From contig OZ004582.1 in assembly GCA_963924555.1 (NCBI GenBank), forward strand, positions 2,232,001 through 2,296,000: a DNA stretch of 64,000 nt, read 5' to 3'. This DNA comes from Crambe crambe. Its lineage: Eukaryota; Porifera; Demospongiae; Poecilosclerida; Crambeidae. The position numbers were made by a program, and so were the translations under genes. The notes under the pieces are model-generated. The model did not search any database. It worked only from the letters and a program-made list of their open reading frames with translations, and was not told where the DNA came from. Positions 1 through 62,590 of this stretch are shown one piece after another; position 1 is the stretch's first letter; each line of letters opens with the position of its first letter.

Positions 1-615
1 TAGCCATGATCTCTTCCAGGGAGTGTGGAGGTGGGGCAGCACGGTGTGCGTTCCACCACATGGACACCGAAGGTCAGTGTATCGATATGTGTGCCTCACA
101 CAACATAACATACAAATTAATGCTTTGCAGATGGTCAGCTGTAAGGGCCTGTCGAGCATCAGATGGCACACCAGACACTTGAGATCTCCATCCATGGAGG
201 GGTGGTGAGACAGCCTCTCTCTGAGGGCAAACGCTAGTGGTACACTTTGAGGTGCCTCCTCTTTCATGTATGCCACTAGCTCAACAATGAGGTGCGATGG
301 CCTCCCAATGGGTGCTTTTTTGGGCTTTTGACCCACTCTGCTCAAAACTGCCTCACTACCACTCTCTTCCCACTTGAATTTCGTTAGCCGAGGTGTATAG
401 TCCCTCCCCTCTTTGATGGCTTTCTCTGTTCTTTTGCAGATATTATTACACCCGTAGCAAAATCTCTGTGGGTGGACCTCTATTCGATCATCTGCTGTGA
501 TCACCCCTATCTGTGCCAGCTTTGCCTTGTTGGTAGTGGTGTGGCAGTCATAAGACACTTTGTACCTTGAGAGTTTCCCCCCACACACTCTACACCTATC
601 CTGCAACCAGGCCAT
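1..615 (-). CDS. RAG1 N-terminus-like (N-RAG-TP type) zinc-binding protein, partial at window edge
   Basis: On the minus strand an uninterrupted frame of 205 codons runs from an ATG at 615 to the left edge, where it is still open. Seen: an N-terminal C-x2-C-G knuckle (C8, C11), then HPQRFCYGC at residues 48-56 and basic spacing; a GRPSHL segment near residue 104; and a RING-like cluster with C147-x2-C150, C163, C168-x2-C171 and C184-P-C186. Vertebrate RAG1 has the same order: a CRICG knuckle, HPxxFCxxC, and later a RING of the form CxIC...CKHxFCxxC...CPSC. Here the RING histidine position after C163-K is alanine, so the finger is divergent. N-RAG-TP elements described from molluscs and other invertebrates carry this N-terminal part without the RAG1 catalytic core. 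No catalytic core is in view. The start is the first ATG, one residue run before the knuckle. It could also be an unrelated treble-clef plus RING protein. Confidence 0.6.
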   Translation of the reverse strand, partial: MAWLQDRCRVCGGKLSRYKVSYDCHTTTNKAKLAQIGVITADDRIEVHPQRFCYGCNNICKRTEKAIKEGRDYTPRLTKFKWEESGSEAVLSRVGQKPKKAPIGRPSHLIVELVAYMKEEAPQSVPLAFALRERLSHHPSMDGDLKCLVCHLMLDRPLQLTICKALICMLCCVRHTYRYTDLRCPCGGTHTVLPHLHTPWKRSWL

Positions 616-3552: not shown

Positions 3553-5609
3553 CTCTGCCCAAACAGCTGTAATTGTGATGGCGGTCAGCACAGAGTCAAA
3601 TTTTTATATTGGAGAGGCCTTCCAGACTATAGAAGAAAGATTAAGATTTATGAACAGCAGCACTATGGAAACGGGATTCTAGGATCATAAAAACTGCTCA
3701 AAAACGAATCAATAAGCCTCTCAAGGAAGGCTTAAAGTATTATGAAGTGACTTATTGTTGCATTCATGGGGGGAAAAGATTCAAATCCAAGAGTGAAGCT
3801 ACATCGTAAGTCATCAAAAGTAATATTTGTTTGACGTTCACTTTCTTCTAACAGGACATTTCGAATGACTTGCTCATGTGTGCTATCATTACGAGCATCT
3901 TTAGATGGAACTTCTCTTGTGGTAAGAAAATTCATTGACGAACATAATCATCCCATTAGTCGAATAAGTAGTTATACAGAAACAAATATAATAGACATTG
4001 TTTGACTTCTTTATTTTAGGAACTGTTTAAGCAACAGAGAAAGCTTTCTAATAAGGAACAAAGTGAAGCAGAAAACCTTTTGCGCTTAAAAGCGAATAAG
4101 AAGATGGTACAGGATAAATGTCAGGGAAGGTGGTACTTTTGAAGGATCTATCCAATTTAAATTCTAAGATGGTACTAGAAATGACTTGAATGAAAGTGTG
4201 AGACTACTAACAGGTAAGAATATAACCTTGAAAGGAAGAAGGGTTTGCTGTATAGCCCAATCAAGGCCTTATAAAGTGGGACAGGCTTGTAACTAATATA
4301 GACAGCGAAATTACTGAAAGTGAAAAGTATCTGGATCAATGTTGCTATAATGTCTATACTAGTCCATGCGGGAGTTACAAGCCCTCTGGCAGTTGATAAG
4401 CCCTTGATGTTATGTTATATTATTGCAGGTGCTGTGGTAGATTAAAGATGACAACACTTTATATGGTATTTTCTTTCAAGATAAACAGATGCAGCAAGTA
4501 TTTGCTGCTTATCCAGAATTGCTGTGCATTGATGTGACATATAAGCTATTGGAATTACATTTTCCTGTATATATCAAGCATGGTAGCTGCCTTCAAAAAA
4601 TATAATCCAAAGTGGGAAGCAGTTCGAGTTTTGATGGCAGATAAAGACATGACGGAACGATTGGTCTTTGCTGCAGGTTTTCCTCAGGCTCAATTACTTA
4701 TATACCTTTCGAACATTTCGAAGGGAAATAACCTGTAAATAACTTCCGACAACGTACTATGATTTTGGAGATGCTGCAGCAGATGGCTTATGGTACTAGT
4801 GATGAGATTATTCAGTACTTCAATGATCATTGGCACCCTATTTGGCAACAATGGGTCATGGGTATGAAATATAGCTCAGGTAACTTTCTGAATGGAACAA
4901 ATAACCGCTTGGAATGCATAATTCAAAGATTAAAATCTGTGATTTCACGATACTCTTCTTTAGAGGATTTTGTTGCTAATTTTTTTCTAATTCTTCGAGT
5001 AATGCATTCTGAAAGAGATCACAAAGCTGCTCTTATTGTTCAAAAAGTTCCAATAGCTTTCCATGACACTTCTAGTATGAAATATCTCACACCTTACTCG
5101 TATCGTTTCATTGCAAAGCAGATATCCTTGATTGATAAAGTTAAATTAAAGGATATTGATGGAGAGCAATCTTTTCATACTTCATCCAGTGAAGGTGAAC
5201 TTACTGTAAGCTGTTCATCTTGTACATGTATGTTTTGGCAATCAATAAAGCTGCCTTGCAGGCATATATTTGCTGCCCGTTCCAAACTTGATCTCAACTT
5301 ATTCAATGAAGGTTTGTGTGATAGGCAGTGGTCTGCTGAATATTTTCAGCATAATCAAAGAATTTTTTGTAGTGATTTTGAAAATTATAAACCATCATTT
5401 TCTGTTATGGAGCTTCCACCACCACAAAAGAAAACTCTGTCACAGGTATAGCTAACATTCCAGAGGTATACATCAGTAACTTTCACTCTGTACTCTTACT
5501 TTAGTCTGAGAAATTTCGCTATGTGTCCAAAATAACAAAACTAGCCTCTTTGGCTTCTGAAGTGACTGGATCTGCCTTTGAACTAAATATGACGGTTCCT
5601 ACTTTATAG
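3553..5609 (+). pseudogene. MULE transposase with FAR1/FLYWCH-like DNA-binding region and C-terminal SWIM finger
   Basis: A ZSWIM/FAR1-like Mutator-family transposase gene. Seen: an N-terminal DNA-binding region (YYEVTYCCIHGG.., then EHNHPIS) split by a 49-bp intron at 3806-3854; a middle MULE domain with CIDVTYKL (first catalytic aspartate) near 4530; and an open 3' exon at 4759-5445 with FLNGTNNRLE and a SWIM finger CTC-x8-CRH at about 5221-5268. A 59-bp GT..AG intron (5446-5504) joins in phase to a last exon ending in TAG at 5607-5609, whose SLASEVTG tail is typical of these proteins. The 3' third is intact, but the 5' two thirds contain several stops and frame changes. The family could be a domesticated ZSWIM gene; the decay argues for a dead transposon. 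Confidence 0.85.
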
Positions 5610-15214: not shown

Positions 15215-16166
15215 CTCAGTAGAGGTCAACTTCAGCCTTCTGGGTCCTCGGCTCACTCTTCAGCCTTTCTAAACTGGCTCTTTTCAGAGCCACCAAAAGC
15301 GAGAGACTTTATCCTTCCATAGTTAGCTAGACACGGGTGGGGCTGCCGCGAAAAAAAAAGCTATGCAAGGGGGTGTGTGCCTGATTTTGGGCCCATATGT
15401 TGCATGCAGCTACCAATAGGTAAGCCAAATAAATAGAAAAGTAAAGTAGAAATGGAAAAAAGCTTCTGTAATCTTGTAGAGAGAAATAGTTATTAGTAGC
15501 TTGATTATGAAATGCGCTCATATCTTGGGTAAGAATTGTCCCTCCTCCTTCATATTTGCTTACCTTTAAGCTATCTCTATTAACAAAGGCAGGAATTGAA
15601 CCTACTCCTCCGGGGCATGAGCCCGGCAACCTTCCTAGATCCACTCTGTAAACCTTATTCTCAGTAACTTTCTTTAGATCCAATTGAACCACCCCTACCG
15701 TAGCTGCAAAAAAAGCTGTTAAAGCCCGATTTGGTACCTAGTAAGACTGCAGAGTTAAAAAAACCTTTTTTGAAAGTAGTTTTTGAGTTAGTCTTTCCTT
15801 CGCAACCGTGTGTCGGCGTATGTGCCTCCACCCTTAACTGCACCATTACCTATTTTGTTGTTTATAATTGTTCTTGTTACATAAATCTTAGTCCTGAAGA
15901 GTTGTGGATAGCATTTGGTATTGGATCTAATTTCCATTATATACCAGTCCACAAAGTAGCTGCTGCAATCAGTGTATTAAAACTACTTACGTTAACTTAC
16001 ATTAATACATTCTGTCAATTTGTTTATTAAGTACTGCAAACCTTCAGCAGCATCCTGTTGTGCAGAACCAACTAGGCTACTCTTGAGCATGGACTAGAAG
16101 AAAAATTGTTTAAGTAATAATGTAGAAAATTAATAACGATTTCAGATTTTGTCACCTTTACATGTC
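15215..16166. other. Spacer between hAT ends, contains a tRNA-like segment
   Basis: No protein motif. Frames on both strands at 15327-15846 are by-products. The only structured piece I see is the tRNA-like fold at 15581-15659. Confidence 0.4.
15581..15659 (-). tRNA. tRNA-like sequence with CAT anticodon loop (pseudo-tRNA or SINE head)
   Basis: On the minus strand the acceptor arms AATAAGG (15659-15653) and CTTTGTT (15588-15582) pair in all seven positions with two G-T wobbles. The anticodon stem CCGGG/CCCGG encloses a 7-base loop CTCATGC, giving anticodon CAT. The T arm is GTAGG-TTCAATT-CCTGC, and GGTTCAATTCC matches a B box. The D-arm region is 26 bases, too long for a standard tRNA, and the variable loop is only 4 bases. 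The CCGGGCTCATG..CCGG anticodon arm looks more like an organellar or initiator Met tRNA than a nuclear elongator. It could be an organelle-derived pseudogene, the head of a tRNA-type SINE, or chance. Confidence 0.4.
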
Positions 16167-31420: not shown

Positions 31421-33300
31421 GCTTGATGGTCCTACTGTACCGCATAGGTATTCTAAATGGTAGCTATTTCCATGGCTTTTTTGATGGTCCAACTGTGGCC
31501 ATAGCCAGTTTGTTAATGGCTATAGCCAACTATTAATGTCAGTCACATAGCTTATGTTTCCATTTTTGATGGTCCAACTATTAGGTACTATAGCCAGTTT
31601 ATTAATGGATTATTCGTAATGGTTAGTCTTTTCTTTGAATGGCAGTCTAAATTGCTATAGCTGATGTTTCCATTGTGATAGCATAATAATAGCTAGCCAG
31701 TTTAGCTGTAGCTGTTGTGTTTCCATAGCCATTCTAACTGGAGGTACACAGTCTTAGCTTATAATTAGTGTGTATATTCCTCCTAACCACAGATGGCCCT
31801 TATTCCCTGAATAGCAATCATCGACTCAATGGATATGAATCTTCAAACTGGATGGCTCTACCATGATCCGAATATCAATTTTGCAGACCCTCAACTATCA
31901 CTGTTTCAGTCCAATTTGCATCATATCTTTGAATTATGTGAGCTCCCTCAAAATCAGCTCATTCAAAGACCATAACCATGTTTTCTATATCTATATCAAT
32001 CATCATCTGTGTAGTTGTTCATTCCTTATTATTCAGTTATGTAAAACTAATGATCAGTAAAGTATTTTAGTTACACAATTGTCACTGTGGCAGGCTGGAG
32101 CTGTTTTCATAACCCTATTGTTACTAGCCAAATGGCAGTCTAAATAGCTACCAGGCCCAGGGAGATGGAAGCGCCGTGAGACAAATCCTCTTTCCGACCG
32201 GGTACCCCTACGTAAGTTCATTGCTATAGCCAGTTAGTTTGTTAAAATGGCAGATATAGCCGATGTTTCCAATAGCCAGTTTGTTAAAATGTCTATAACC
32301 AGTTTGTTAATCCAAGTTATGCAGAAGGTGGACACAAGGTTGGAAATGAAATTTCAGCTATAGCTAGCTATAGCTACACACACTTTGTAGCTGATTCGAG
32401 TTGATCACACACTTCAGTAGATGATAGCAAATCCAACTCTTCCGATACATAATTAGCCTTCATCAGCTGAAATACCGGTGCATTGCATATTGAACCTTCA
32501 GCTTCTTGTCTATTCACGCATGGTGCCTAGGTTATAATTTTTCACAAGACGGATATGAATCTAAACATTCAACACGATGCCTAGCCTCACTTTGACATCC
32601 ATAAATTTTTTTGTCCTACCAATGCTATAGACTTTGTGTTTTCCAACTGTAAGTACACTGATGTTTCAACCACCTTATAATTAATTTTTGTTGTGTGTAT
32701 ATTCCTCCTAACTACAACTGACGGCCCTTATTCCTATCTGAATAGCAATTGTCGACTCAATGGATATGAATCTTCAAACTGGATGGCTCTACCATAGTTC
32801 TATCACAGCTTTCCTATCCGAATATCAATTGTGCAGAAACTCTGCTACAGCTTTCCTATAATAACTATATGAATCATCATTACAGATATGCAATATACTA
32901 GTATATCCCTACAAAGTTCTTCGAATTCTGTAAAGTCGTTAAATTACAGGTCGTATCTCGAAAACCATCAGGGTGATTTCTATACAATATACTAGTATTA
33001 TCGTTATTGAAATCCATCATGACATACAAGATACTAAGGCAATGTGAAACATTTGACAGTGAGCAAGTGCTTCAGATTTTGAGGCAGTCTACATAGAAAG
33101 TTATGTAAGTGGTGGGAAGCTCCATACAGAAAGCTGTAAATGAATCCACTTTGATAAGCTTACACACATATCTGAATTTATTCAAATTCCATTAGTTATT
33201 ACCGCAATACCATATCTCGAAAACCTTCGGGGGGACTTCTATGAAATTACAGATACACAACAATTATACTAGTATATCCCCACAACAATTTAGTTATTAT
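31421..33300 (+). repeat. Kilobase-scale repeat, left copy (inverted partner at 42820-43990)
   Basis: Contains sub-blocks with CCATAGCCAGTTTGTTAATGG and GATGGTCCAACTGT motifs (31430-31760, again at 32220-32310), a block GACTCAATGGATATGAATC (twice: about 31831 and 32752), the ATACTAGTAT palindrome core (about 32888-33290) and a TGATAAGCTTACACAC segment. In inverted order the same blocks make up 42820-43990, at roughly 85-95 percent similarity by eye. About 600 bp near 31890-32640 are extra in this copy. No protein coding. Confidence 0.85.
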
Positions 33301-40672: not shown

Positions 40673-41977
40673 TTATCTATTAAAATGTAACATGAGAGCT
40701 TTGCGGATACTATCAGCATCCTGTTGAGATGTTTGAACTGAAGCAGCAGTTGTAGAACTAAAACCATTTCTTTCAACCCCTTCCATCCACTCTACATTGA
40801 ACTCATCACCATGAATCTCACAAATGTTATGAAGAACACAGCATGCAGCTACAAGCTCTGGAACGTCATCAATATTCACATCCAGTCTTTTCAATAGACA
40901 CCTGCATCTCCCCTTTAGTTTACCATAACTATGCTCCACAATTACTCTGGCTCTGCTAAGACAGTAATTAAACTTTCTTTGCTGGTGAGATAAATTTCCA
41001 TTGTCTGGAAACGCTTTCATCACCCACCGTAGAAGGGGATATGCTGGATCTCCAAGAATAACAACGGGAATATCCACACCACTAATTTTCTCAGTCCAGT
41101 CCGGAAATAAGGTTTTGTTTTGACCTTTACGATATATGCTGGAATTTGCAAACACTCGTGCATCATGCACTTTACCAGGCCAACCAATATACACATCAAT
41201 AAACAACCCCTTATTGTCAACTGCACCTTGCATAATAATAGAGTGCCACCCCTTACGATTATAGTAATCTGCAGGACATTCATATGGTGATAAAATAGGA
41301 ATATGAGTTCCATCAAAAGCTCCCGCACACTGAGGAAAACCATGGTCACTTTTAAAACCTTCAATGACAGCTTTCAGGGTACTTCCTGTAGGTACTTTGA
41401 TGTAGTCCGGTAATAGCAACTCAACAATACAGAAACACACTTCTTTTACTATTACACACACTGTGGACTTTGACACACCAAATAAGTGGCCTATTGTCCT
41501 ATAATCAGCTCCGGTGGACAGAAACCACAATGTTATACCTAAACGCTTTTCAGTTACAATAGCTTTTCTCATCATTGTATCTTGCTTTTCTATGGTGCAC
41601 TTTAGTTTATCACACAAATACACAAAAGTAGAATGGGACATGCGAAAGTTCTTAAGCCAGTCTTCTGGTCCAAATCTATTAACCACATGCTCCCACCAAT
41701 GGCCACTCCTTTCCCTTGCCCAGATCATCCTCTCAGATGAGAAATACAAATGGGAACTCATCGCCATAATGGCTAAAAATAAAGCATGTTCTTTTGCTTG
41801 CCTCCTACGAAATGTTCTCAGTCTCCTTGCCTTCTGCTTCTTCATGTGCCTCATTCTCATACAAGAGTGCTGTTTTACTCCCCACAAACACACAAAGGTA
41901 CTCAAAACGAATTTATCCATCTTACACACTTTGGCTTGACATCTGTTACTAAGCAATCTAGTCCCCCTAGTGCGCAT
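40673..41977 (-). CDS. PIF/Harbinger DDE transposase, full-length
   Basis: A single uninterrupted 434-codon frame. The DDE catalytic domain (Pfam DDE_Tnp_4 type) shows GAFDGTHIPI (D222), VILGDPAYPLL (D310) and ARVIVEHSYGKLKGR (E349), with HDARVFANS (D272) between. Upstream, residues about 105-175 contain the usual helix-turn-helix-like region with MSHSTFVYLCDKL and RTIGHLFGVSKSTV. Length is normal for the family (about 350-450 aa). The enzyme would cut at the TIRs and insert at TWA sites. Related host gene: HARBI1. Start chosen at 41977, the first ATG; later methionines at residues 20 and 40 are alternatives. Intact coding suggests a fairly recent arrival compared with its surroundings. Confidence 0.95.
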   Translation of the reverse strand: MRTRGTRLLSNRCQAKVCKMDKFVLSTFVCLWGVKQHSCMRMRHMKKQKARRLRTFRRRQAKEHALFLAIMAMSSHLYFSSERMIWARERSGHWWEHVVNRFGPEDWLKNFRMSHSTFVYLCDKLKCTIEKQDTMMRKAIVTEKRLGITLWFLSTGADYRTIGHLFGVSKSTVCVIVKEVCFCIVELLLPDYIKVPTGSTLKAVIEGFKSDHGFPQCAGAFDGTHIPILSPYECPADYYNRKGWHSIIMQGAVDNKGLFIDVYIGWPGKVHDARVFANSSIYRKGQNKTLFPDWTEKISGVDIPVVILGDPAYPLLRWVMKAFPDNGNLSHQQRKFNYCLSRARVIVEHSYGKLKGRCRCLLKRLDVNIDDVPELVAACCVLHNICEIHGDEFNVEWMEGVERNGFSSTTAASVQTSQQDADSIRKALMLHFNR

Positions 41978-42244
41978 GCCTTTACCTACAGGCCTAAATA
42001 AAGAACTATAAAACTCACCTAATCCCTGTTTTGAGCTGTAACGGCTTCATCTTCTCTATTCACATGGCCTTCCTGGTCCGTTCCAAATGTAGAGCACCTC
42101 AATGAGAAAATTCACGTGTGGACAAAAGTTACCCGGATCTCTACCCGGATATGAATCCGGATAGAAGGCTCGTGTAAACGGGGCTTTAGATATACTTTCT
42201 GTACCGGAACTGCAAAGGTTAACGGTAGTGCTTCGATCTGCTGA

Positions 42245-42819: not shown

Positions 42820-43990
42820 AACTAAATTGTTGTGGGGATATACTAGTATAATTGTCGTGTATCTGTAATTTCATAATAAATTCTGATATGTGAGGGGTGG
42901 TTGGGTGTGTAAGCTTATCAAAGTGGATCGTAGGCTCAGCCTTTTGTCACATAGGCTCTAAGCTTATCAAAGTGGATTGTAGGAGCTCGGTGGCTTATCT
43001 AAGTGCTCATTTACAGCTTTCTGCCTGCCACTTACATAACTCTGTCTCTCTTTCTATGTAGACTGCCTGACACAGCAATATCTGAAGCACTTGCTCACTG
43101 TCAAATGTTTCACATTGCCTTAGTATCTTGTATGTCGCGATGGTTTTAAATTTCAAATAACGATAATACTAGTATATTGTATATCTGTAATTTCATAGAA
43201 ATCACCCTGATGGTTTTCGAGATACGACCTGTAATTTCATACAAATCCCTCCGATGGTTTTCTAGATAATGGTATTACGGTAATAACACCTTAACGACTT
43301 TACGGAATTCGAAGAACTTTGAATATGTTGTAGGGATATACTAGTATATTGCATATCTGTAATGATTATTCATATAGTTATTATAGGAAAGCTGTAGCAG
43401 AGTTTCTGCACAATTGATATTCGGATAGGAAAGCTGTGATAGAACTATGGTAGAGCCATCCAGTTTGAAGATTCATATCCATTGAGTCGACGATTGCCAT
43501 CTGTGGTAGTGTGATAGGGTCATCCAGCTACACACTAATTATAAGCTAAGACTGTGTACCTCCAGTTGGAATGGCTGGAAACACAACAGCTGCTATGACC
43601 ACGAACCTACATATTGAAATCAGAAATGGAAACATCAGCTATAGCAATTTAGACTGCCATTCAACGATTATAAACAATCCATTAACAAACTGGCTATAGT
43701 ACCTAACAGTTGGACCATCAAAAATGGAAATGTTAGCTATGGGCATATTTAGACTGACATTAATAGCTAAATGGCTATAACCATTTAACAATCTAGCTAT
43801 AGCCATTAACAAACTGGCTATGGTCACGGTTGGGCCATCAAAAAAGCCATGGAAATACTATTTAGACTGCCATTTGGTACCTACAGTACAGTAGGACCAT
43901 CAGAAATGGAAACATCAGCTATGGAAACATATCAGCCATAGCTATTCAGACTGCCATAGCCATAGCCATAGCCATAGCCTTTAGGTTCTC
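42820..43990 (-). repeat. Kilobase-scale repeat, right copy (inverse of 31421-33300)
   Basis: Reads in reverse order the blocks of the left copy: ATACTAGTAT palindromes (42840, 43166, 43340), GGTTTTCGAGATACGACCTG, GATTCATATCCATTGAGTC and AACAAACTGGCTATGG. It ends in a CCATAG microsatellite (about 43955-43980). Confidence 0.85.
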
Positions 43991-59889: not shown

Positions 59890-62590
59890 ATCTGGATGCC
59901 AACTACAACAGCCCAGATTGAGCTGGATGGAAACACCTACTCCATGACTGTTGGAGTGTCAGAAGAAACTAAAGAGTTGGATGCCCTGGTTGGTGTAGAC
60001 TTCCCTGGATTTGACAAAGTTGCAGCACCAAGGATACTTGGCAGACTCAACCCTGTGCTGGCTGTTACCAGAGCTCAGGCACGAAAAGAGCAGAAGGCAG
60101 AGCAGGAAGCTGCACGACTGGAAGAAGAAGACCAGGTGCAACCTACCAACCTGTACAGAGGAGCATGTAGCCAGTGAGGGAGGAGCTACCCCAGAAGATG
60201 AACGTGAACAATGTGACCCAAGCAGAGACCATGACAGTTTTGAGAATAACTTCCATAATTTTGATTCTTCTCTTTTCCTGCAGGGCAAAACCCGGAGAAA
60301 GATGACCCGATCCAGCAGAAGGAGGCTTAAGCAGGAGTATGTTACCAACCAGAAGTCAACTCAACCAAAGCCTGAGAGGATCAACAAGGAGCAGCTGGGA
60401 GAACTGCAAAGATCTGACCCCACACTCAGACGAATCAGAAAACTGGCTGACTCCAACCGAGGAAACTACCACTGGGAGGATGGAATATTGACAGAGAAGA
60501 GAACAGGGAAGGATGCAGAAACCATATCTCTCCTTGTGTTGCCAATGTCATGCAGGGACGAGGTTCTCAAGATGGCACTTTTGGATGAGTTGGCTGATCA
60601 CTGGGTCGACCATTCAAGTGAGCCATCTAATGTGGTGGAGTACATGCGGGAACTTAGAGAGAAAATGGATAGGATCCGAGGACTCGTCAAGGAGAATGAA
60701 CAGCGAGCCAAGGAACAGCACAAGAAATTCCACGACCGGAATACTTCAGTGAGAGAGTTTAGAGAAGGGGACATGGTCCTTGTTCTACTTCCTGGGTTGA
60801 GAAACAAGTTGGAAACAGAGTGGCTGGGGCCCTATCAAGTTGTACAGAGGAAGTCAGATGTGACATACGAGATCGACATGCATGACCACAAGAGGACTTT
60901 TCACGTCAATGCCCTGAAAGCCTGGACATCACCTGTGCCTGCTGTTCTCCAGATTGCTACAGTGGGAGAAGCCGAACCTTTGACGTGGGGAGAGTTAGAA
61001 GACGATGAAGAAGGCAGGACCGCAAACCAACTGTCACCAGAACAGCAGAATGATTTGAAAAGGCTGAAGGAGCAATTTGTAGATGTCATCAGTGACATTT
61101 CTGGACGAACAAGTTTGGTTGAATACCGAATTGATACAGGAGATGCTAGTTCTATTCGCCTACCCCCATATCGGACACCCCAAGCCCTGAGAGAAGTGTT
61201 GAAGAAAGAGGTCAAGGAGATGCTAGACCAAGGAATCGTGGTCCCATCCACAAGTGAGTGGGCGGCACCTGTTATTCTCGTTCCCAAGAAGGATGGAACA
61301 AAAAGATTGTGTGTGGACTTCCGCAAACTGAACCATGTCACGAAAGCAGACCCCTATCCAATTCCGAGGGTGGAGGAACTGATAGACCGACTTGGAAGGG
61401 CTAGTGCCCTCGACCTCACAAAGGGATACTGGCAGGTACCCGTTGCGGAGGACAGTCAACACAAAACAGCGTTCATCACGCCCTTTGGCAAGTACCAATT
61501 CACAACGATGCCTGATGGGGGCACCCTTGACATTTCAGAGGCTGATGAATCAAGTCCTGGAGGATGTACAGGAATATGCAGCAGCCTATTTAGATGATGT
61601 ATTGGTGCACAGCAATACATGGAAGGAACATCTAGAACACTCGACTAAAGTATTCATGCAATACTTGGACACATCGTGGGAGAGGGACAAGTGAGGCCAG
61701 AGCAATGCAAGATTGATGCTGTGAGGGAATTTCAACAACCCAGAACCAAGAAGCAGGTCCGAGCATTTTTAGGACTGGCGGGGTATTATAGGAAATTTAT
61801 CCCTGACTTTGCCACCATTGCAGTGCCCCTAACTAATCTAACCAAAAAGTCAGCTTCAGCTCATGTACAGTGGGGAAAAGAACAAAAGTGTGCCTTTGAT
61901 CAGCTGAAGGAGATGTTGACATCATCACCAGTCCTCAACAATCCAGACTTTTCAAGGCCGTTCATCTTACAAACTGATGCCTCCGATGTAGGAATTGGCT
62001 CAGTCCTGAGTCAAATGGATGAGAAGGGAGAAGAACATCCCATCGCTTATGCATCCAGAAAATTACTACCTCGAGAAACTAGATATGCTGCAGTGGAGAA
62101 AGAATGCTTAGCCATTGTGGAGGGCGTACGGACCTTTCGAGTGTATCTGGAAGGAAGACCATTTCAAATCCAGACAGATCACAGGTCTCTGCAGTATCTC
62201 AACCGAATGAGAGATCACAATGGATGCTTAGCAAGATGGAGCCTGTACCTGCAACCATATCAGTTTTCTGTTAGAAATGCCGATGGTTTGTCCAGAGAGG
62301 ACTCCCCAGACTCCGTCTACCAAGGGAAGGGGGAGGTGTCAGGAGGCAGTCCTGACTTAATGACTTAGTATTGACACATCATCATTGACACATCATCACT
62401 GACACATCAGCATTTGCGGTCACACATCACTGCACATGATTCATGCCTTATATGGTAATTCCTAAAATATTCTGAGTATAGAACTTGTGAAGCTGTATCA
62501 TCTTTTTCTGTGTGTTGTGTTTCACCCTCTACCTAGATAGCTATTATTACTTTTGGCCAAATACTGTGTGTGCCTAGTTGACTGCTAGCT
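59890..62590 (+). mobile_element. Ty3/gypsy element with integrase upstream of reverse transcriptase (Gmr1-like order), fossil
   Basis: Parts in order on the plus strand: end of a retropepsin-like region (DALVGVDFPGF, about 59970-60010), an integrase zinc/N-terminal stretch (VLPMSCRDEVLKMALLDE), an integrase C-terminal region (HKKFHDRNTSVREFREGDMV and WLGPYQVVQRKSDVTYEIDM), reverse transcriptase (VPKKDGTKRLCVDFRKLNHV, ASALDLTKGYWQVPV, AAAYLDDVLVHS) and RNase H (FILQTDASDVGIGSVLSQMD, IQTDHRSLQYLNRM). Pol ends after RNase H with no second integrase. A polypurine tract (62321-62335) followed by TGTCAGGAGG at 62336 marks the probable 3' LTR start. The integrase core, gag and 5' LTR were not found. 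Broken, with a few breaks plus an internal loss; it looks younger than the other retroelement fossils because long frames survive. Confidence 0.9.

Follow-up and report, generated by a model that had tools for sequence, protein, structure and literature searches.

A reading frame of 205 codons that runs off the left edge of the window, the 64,000-nucleotide stretch of Crambe crambe DNA analyzed here, may encode the start of the transposase of a Chapaev (CMC) type cut-and-paste DNA transposon, in which a Chapa zinc-finger domain would be followed by a RING. We give this reading a probability of about 45%. Two separate regions of the predicted protein, which occur in the order found in RAG1, agree in weakly supporting a likeness to the RAG1 N-terminus. 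The frame and its associated features are collected in the table.

Features of the 205-codon frame and of the DNA upstream of it, with window positions
Feature	Positions	Strand	Basis
5′ part of open reading frame (P0001), 205 codons, running off the window edge	1–615	minus	Open-frame reading, cysteine positions
Residues 1–84, zinc-knuckle region resembling the central non-core domain of RAG1	364–615	minus	Pfam, PDB, cysteine positions
Residues 134–205, RING-like cluster	1–216	minus	PDB, Pfam, cysteine positions
Acceptor-like TTTAG then GTTGATGG at the start codon	612–624	minus	Words located
Promoter-like CCAATCAG (947–940) and TATAAA (920–915)	915–947	minus	Words located

As the sequence-only reading had described, the frame is uninterrupted, with an ATG and 204 sense codons, and is still open where the window ends; the stop-free stretch that holds it begins at position 624. 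The other five frames of the same interval contain 6 to 12 stops apiece. Stop-free segments of at least 205 amino acids number nine in the window, compared with a mean of 0.05 per window among 40 simulated windows that share its neighbor-base frequencies. The frame also carries four C-x2-C motifs, the most of any of the 69 stop-free segments of at least 100 amino acids, among which the runners-up have three. Base composition differs among the codon positions no more than chance would allow, and it is itself no argument for coding because 807 of 2,000 shuffles reach the asymmetry of the frame. The sequence-only reading further described the frame as lacking a visible catalytic core. Indeed, none is in view, but this reflects the window edge only, given that the frame is open there.

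Cysteines occupy residues 8, 11, 24, 53, 56, 60, 147, 150, 163, 168, 171, 172, 184 and 186 of the predicted protein. The best-matching Pfam family for residues 1–84, which hold the motifs CRVCG (residues 8–12) and HPQRFCYGC (residues 48–56), is RAG1_imp_bd (E 6.1e-4, 19.9 bits, under the curated cutoff of 23.3), and at a lax limit (E up to 10) this match comes as two stretches. The same family is matched by a 125-amino-acid piece (E 0.0011) and by the whole frame (E 0.0062, 16.6 bits, again under the cutoff), and no Pfam family is matched by residues 1–47 alone. DUF3079 scores nearly as well as RAG1_imp_bd on the HPQRFCYGC stretch of residues 1–84 (E 0.0026). NCBIfam yields just two matches (E 0.15 and 0.49), which we judge to be noise.

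Among solved structures, residues 1–84 give two matches (E up to 10), the better of which is the RAG1 N-terminal domain (21wb_A, E 0.046). In this alignment HPTEFCHDC lies opposite HPQRFCYGC, and a second stretch of just 3.1 bits places CRICG opposite CRVCG. The four aligned cysteines of the 21wb_A chain form pairs 65 residues apart, in agreement with RAG1 cysteines 110/113 and 175/178 as numbered in the relevant passages of PMC3124419. Those passages describe the RAG1 central non-core domain as binding two zinc ions and preferring double-stranded DNA, and they list pairs 110/113, 175/178 and 210/213 as the ones mutated as potential zinc ligands. Two of these three C-x2-C pairs have counterparts in the frame; the third is absent, the next cysteine after that at residue 60 being C147.

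The second region of likeness is a RING-like cluster at residues 147–186, laid out as C147-x2-C150, C163, C168-x2-C171 and C184-P-C186. Alanine 165 stands in place of the expected histidine and the last pair is C-x-C, such that the frame lacks the eight ligands at standard spacing of a C3HC4 RING. When the last 72 residues are compared with solved structures, RAG1 (3jbw_A, E 0.063) is the best RING protein, followed by PCGF5 (0.2) and PCGF6 (0.46). For this piece RAG1 is itself outscored by four chains of viral M1249L (E 0.0052 to 0.011), which also come first when the whole frame is compared (E 0.021 to 0.047, with RAG1 at 0.63). The M1249L alignment keeps C147, C150 and C184 but loses C163, C168, C171 and C186, and we take the resemblance to be due to chance. 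Pfam matches to RING models are not significant for the last 72 residues (zf-C3HC4_2, E 0.58), and for a 121-amino-acid C-terminal piece the RING model (E 1.9) ranks behind PSCyt3 (0.094). The degenerate or non-standard form of the second RING zinc site suggests that a ligase part may be altered or decaying.

None of 18 shuffled controls matches RAG1 (five of the whole protein, ten of the N-terminal piece and three of the RING piece). With E values up to 10 allowed, the five full shuffles of the whole protein match nothing in Pfam. The shuffles of the N-terminal piece, in which cysteines and histidines were held fixed and which were compared with Pfam only, give no RAG1_imp_bd match, although four of the ten match some other family (E 0.25 to 3.1). 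Those of the RING piece, with the same residues fixed and compared with solved structures only, return neither RAG1 nor a RING. Because the shuffles with fixed cysteines and histidines are without RAG1 matches, cysteine spacing alone did not yield such matches in these trials.

The parallel with the N-terminal part of RAG1 that was drawn from the letters alone therefore holds in part: no Pfam family or solved structure matches the N-terminal region better than RAG1, which is also the best RING structure for the C-terminal one, but the matches are weak. The profile search that had been proposed places RAG1_imp_bd first for residues 1–84, at a score below the cutoff. Every profile match of the frame falls under the curated cutoffs. 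Relative to the non-core region of vertebrate RAG1 (residues 87–217, the central non-core domain, together with the ring-containing dimerization domain) as presented in the passages of PMC3124419 that concern it, the frame shares the first two C-x2-C pairs, the HPxxFCxxC motif and, after the zinc pairs, a RING start of the form CxxC...CKxLxCxxC. It differs in lacking the third pair (210/213), in having alanine at the RING histidine and in ending with a C-x-C pair. On the features examined, namely the profile cutoff, the third cysteine pair and a standard RING, the frame does not belong to RAG1 proper. A single-sequence structure prediction, also proposed by the sequence-only reading, was run for the 205-amino-acid frame and is uninformative (mean pLDDT 36.7).

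Transposases of the Chapaev type with a Chapa domain and a RING were reportedly described by Kapitonov and Jurka in 2007. According to the passages of PMC4411706 that treat these elements, the Chapa domain is a truncated N-terminal part of RAG1 common to Chapaev transposons, a RING follows it in two Chapaev subgroups, and no other known transposable element encodes either the Chapa domain or the RING. The resemblance of the frame to these proteins, an N-terminal zinc domain and then a RING, is drawn by description only, and with regard to a Chapa domain, what the frame itself gives is a RAG1-type match. Since Chapaev transposases carry a similar N-terminal module in this account, a RAG1-like start need not indicate N-RAG-TP, and the link to N-RAG-TP genes drawn in the sequence-only reading does not follow. 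A Chapaev transposase would be the more ordinary home for such a frame. Weighing against it, neither a transposase core nor an inverted repeat nor a target duplication is seen for the frame, of which one flank lies within the window. The passages on sponges in PMC4298943 concern a transposon named Spongebob.

We infer the mobility of the frame, its transposon class, its core and all of its activities from the open frame and its weak RAG1-like matches in two regions. On the model of RAG1, a Chapaev-type protein would bind zinc and DNA through its zinc domain, and the RING part would aid protein pairing or serve as a ubiquitin ligase. The catalytic core would sit to the left of the window, in the continuing frame, and would cut at inverted repeats.

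Chapaev elements are described in the pertinent text of PMC4079192 as having termini of the form 5′-CAC ... GTG-3′ and a target site duplication of 3–4 base pairs. The lone CAC candidate for such an end lies at position 1080, where a copy of a repeat family with palindromic ATACTAGTAT units at first seemed to begin. This copy, to the right of the frame, was first placed at 1081–1292 and is now taken to cover 1004–1292; other copies are at about 32879–33291 and about 42824–43363. A transposon end at 1080 was first favored by a blastn match to the repeat that starts there and proceeds rightwards, together with the CAC read inwards. The letters ahead of the unit at 1082 read CAGCAGTGG, unlike those ahead of five other GATAT[A/C]CTAGTAT units (one of them, at 1185, in the same repeat copy), all five of which are preceded by TTGT plus AGA (one), AGG (two) or GGG (two); two more ATACTAGTAT places (43166 on the plus strand and 32998 on the minus strand), where the upstream sequence differs, are outside this count. 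The 19-base sequence at 1062–1080 occurs once in the window.

We have withdrawn this candidate because the repeat probably continues past 1080. The unit at 43166 is nearest to that at 1082 (88.7% over 53 bases), and upstream of the two, in the same order, lies a shared stretch of 22 bases (1004–1025 and 43126–43147) with 19 identities, whose score none of 1,000 shuffles attains. In a blastn comparison of the two repeat copies alone this stretch has an E value of 0.012; the corresponding stretch in the copy near 33 kb is unremarkable (522 of 1,000 shuffles as high). The copy beside the frame probably has about 40 extra bases around 1026–1080, and the break at 1080 is more plausibly a place where about 40 bases were inserted or altered within the repeat than a transposon end. 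No terminal repeat or mobile-element end is identified on the visible side of the frame, the other side lying outside the window. The withdrawal lowers the probability of the Chapaev reading from about 0.5 to about 0.45, and it slightly lowers those of an N-RAG-TP-like element and of a stand-alone module in an early animal; that of a host gene rises appreciably, and that of a coincidence marginally.

Several other features of the window were recorded. To the right of the repeat, at 1429–1767 on the plus strand, is a fragment that weakly matches YqaJ recombinase (Pfam PF09588, E 0.0036, under the cutoff). A 239-amino-acid frame with a SWIM zinc finger (4732–5451, plus strand, E 7.8e-5) possibly derives from a MULE-type element. 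An unbroken frame of 457 amino acids at 40673–42046 on the minus strand contains a DDE_Tnp_4 domain (E 4.8e-33), which we take to be Harbinger-like, and two long frames at 59999–62368 on the plus strand resemble, by eye, a retroelement polyprotein. The sole Rfam find in the window is a tRNA match of 41.7 bits (15581–15650, minus strand).

If the frame is not part of a transposon, it could be an old or domesticated host gene that carries a RAG1-N-like zinc module and has no mobile-element ends. We consider this unlikely, but its length and intactness would fit such a gene, as would the words found upstream. CCAAT-like and TATA-like words, CCAATCAG and TATAAA, lie upstream of the start codon, on the near side of the repeat, in the proper order and orientation and appear promoter-like, and TTTAG followed by GTTGATGG is possibly the 3′ end of a leader intron whose candidate donor is the donor-like GTAAGA at 800–795. 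The single copy of the frame points the same way (a tblastn search of the window finds no second copy of its protein, the other matches having E values of at least 0.28), as does the lack of an element end on the visible side. Weakly against a host gene, and weakly for a Chapaev transposase, stands the depletion of CpG in the frame (0.29 of expectation, compared with 0.41 in the window). Such depletion is common in methylated mobile DNA. In the passages of PMC4411706, moreover, the module is known from transposases of the Transib and Chapaev types and from RAG1 as their derivative.

Searches of viral, prokaryote and plasmid collections, a poor fit for a gene from an animal, return no relative of the frame. 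Peptide patterns produce seven matches in viral contigs and 14 in prokaryote genome contigs, none of which was confirmed as a relative. A search with four motif patterns, among which the variable-gap pattern recovers the frame in the window itself, finds nothing in viral contigs and two matches to one of the patterns in prokaryote genome contigs. Both are judged to be chance, one (L001) containing a ribosomal S14 motif and the other (L002) weakly matching a Nudix-type zinc ribbon (E 0.021). Plasmids searched by tblastn with the frame give no relative.

N-RAG-TP was reportedly described in Aplysia californica by Panchin and Moroz in 2008. It is unlikely that the frame belongs to a stand-alone mobile element of this kind, with only a RAG1 N-terminal-like module between RSS-like inverted repeats. 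The frame resembles the N-RAG-TP of A. californica in having a RAG1 N-terminal-like module, as portrayed in the relevant portions of PMC8355894 and PMC2996935, and the order of its modules is that of RAG1. N-RAG-TP is described in the same part of PMC8355894 as a transposable element made wholly of RAG1 N-terminal-like sequence, whereas the frame here is open at the window edge, with its full length beyond view, and neither an RSS-like nor any other mobile-element end is found beside it on the visible side.

It is improbable that the frame belongs to a RAG1-like transposase (RAGL or TransibVDJ type) whose Transib core would follow in the sequence to the left of the window. No family matches the N-terminal piece better than RAG1 and no RING protein the RING piece, and the passages of PMC7204232 on mollusc RAG1L proteins give them N-terminal zinc motifs and a ring dimerization domain; the missing third cysteine pair of the zinc domain and the non-standard second site of the RING argue the other way. 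Furthermore, no RAG2-like match appears by Pfam in ten window frames (nine of the 20 frames of at least 150 amino acids and one shorter), a partial search for a gene that could also sit outside the window. Finally, a frame that arose by chance, or one for a protein rich in cysteine but related to neither RAG1 nor Chapaev, would be compatible with matches that all fall under curated cutoffs, with a low-confidence single-sequence model, with undistinctive codon-position composition and with scores of DUF3079 and M1249L that equal or nearly equal those of RAG1 on parts of the frame, but two separate regions match RAG1 in its own order and none of the 18 shuffled controls does so, which makes coincidence improbable as well.

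The RAG1 N-terminal zinc module has been held either to descend from an ancestral transposon along with the core (in the passages of PMC4411706 on this point) or to be added later from N-RAG-TP (in those of PMC8355894). On this question the window gives a lead only, because the deciding part lies outside it. The prospect of a stand-alone mobile element that carries the RAG1 N-terminal module alone in an early-branching animal is slim indeed; if true, the module would have moved by itself before joining a Transib-type core. The origin of the zinc module of RAG1 could be addressed with a well-characterized copy from an early animal lineage whose core is known.
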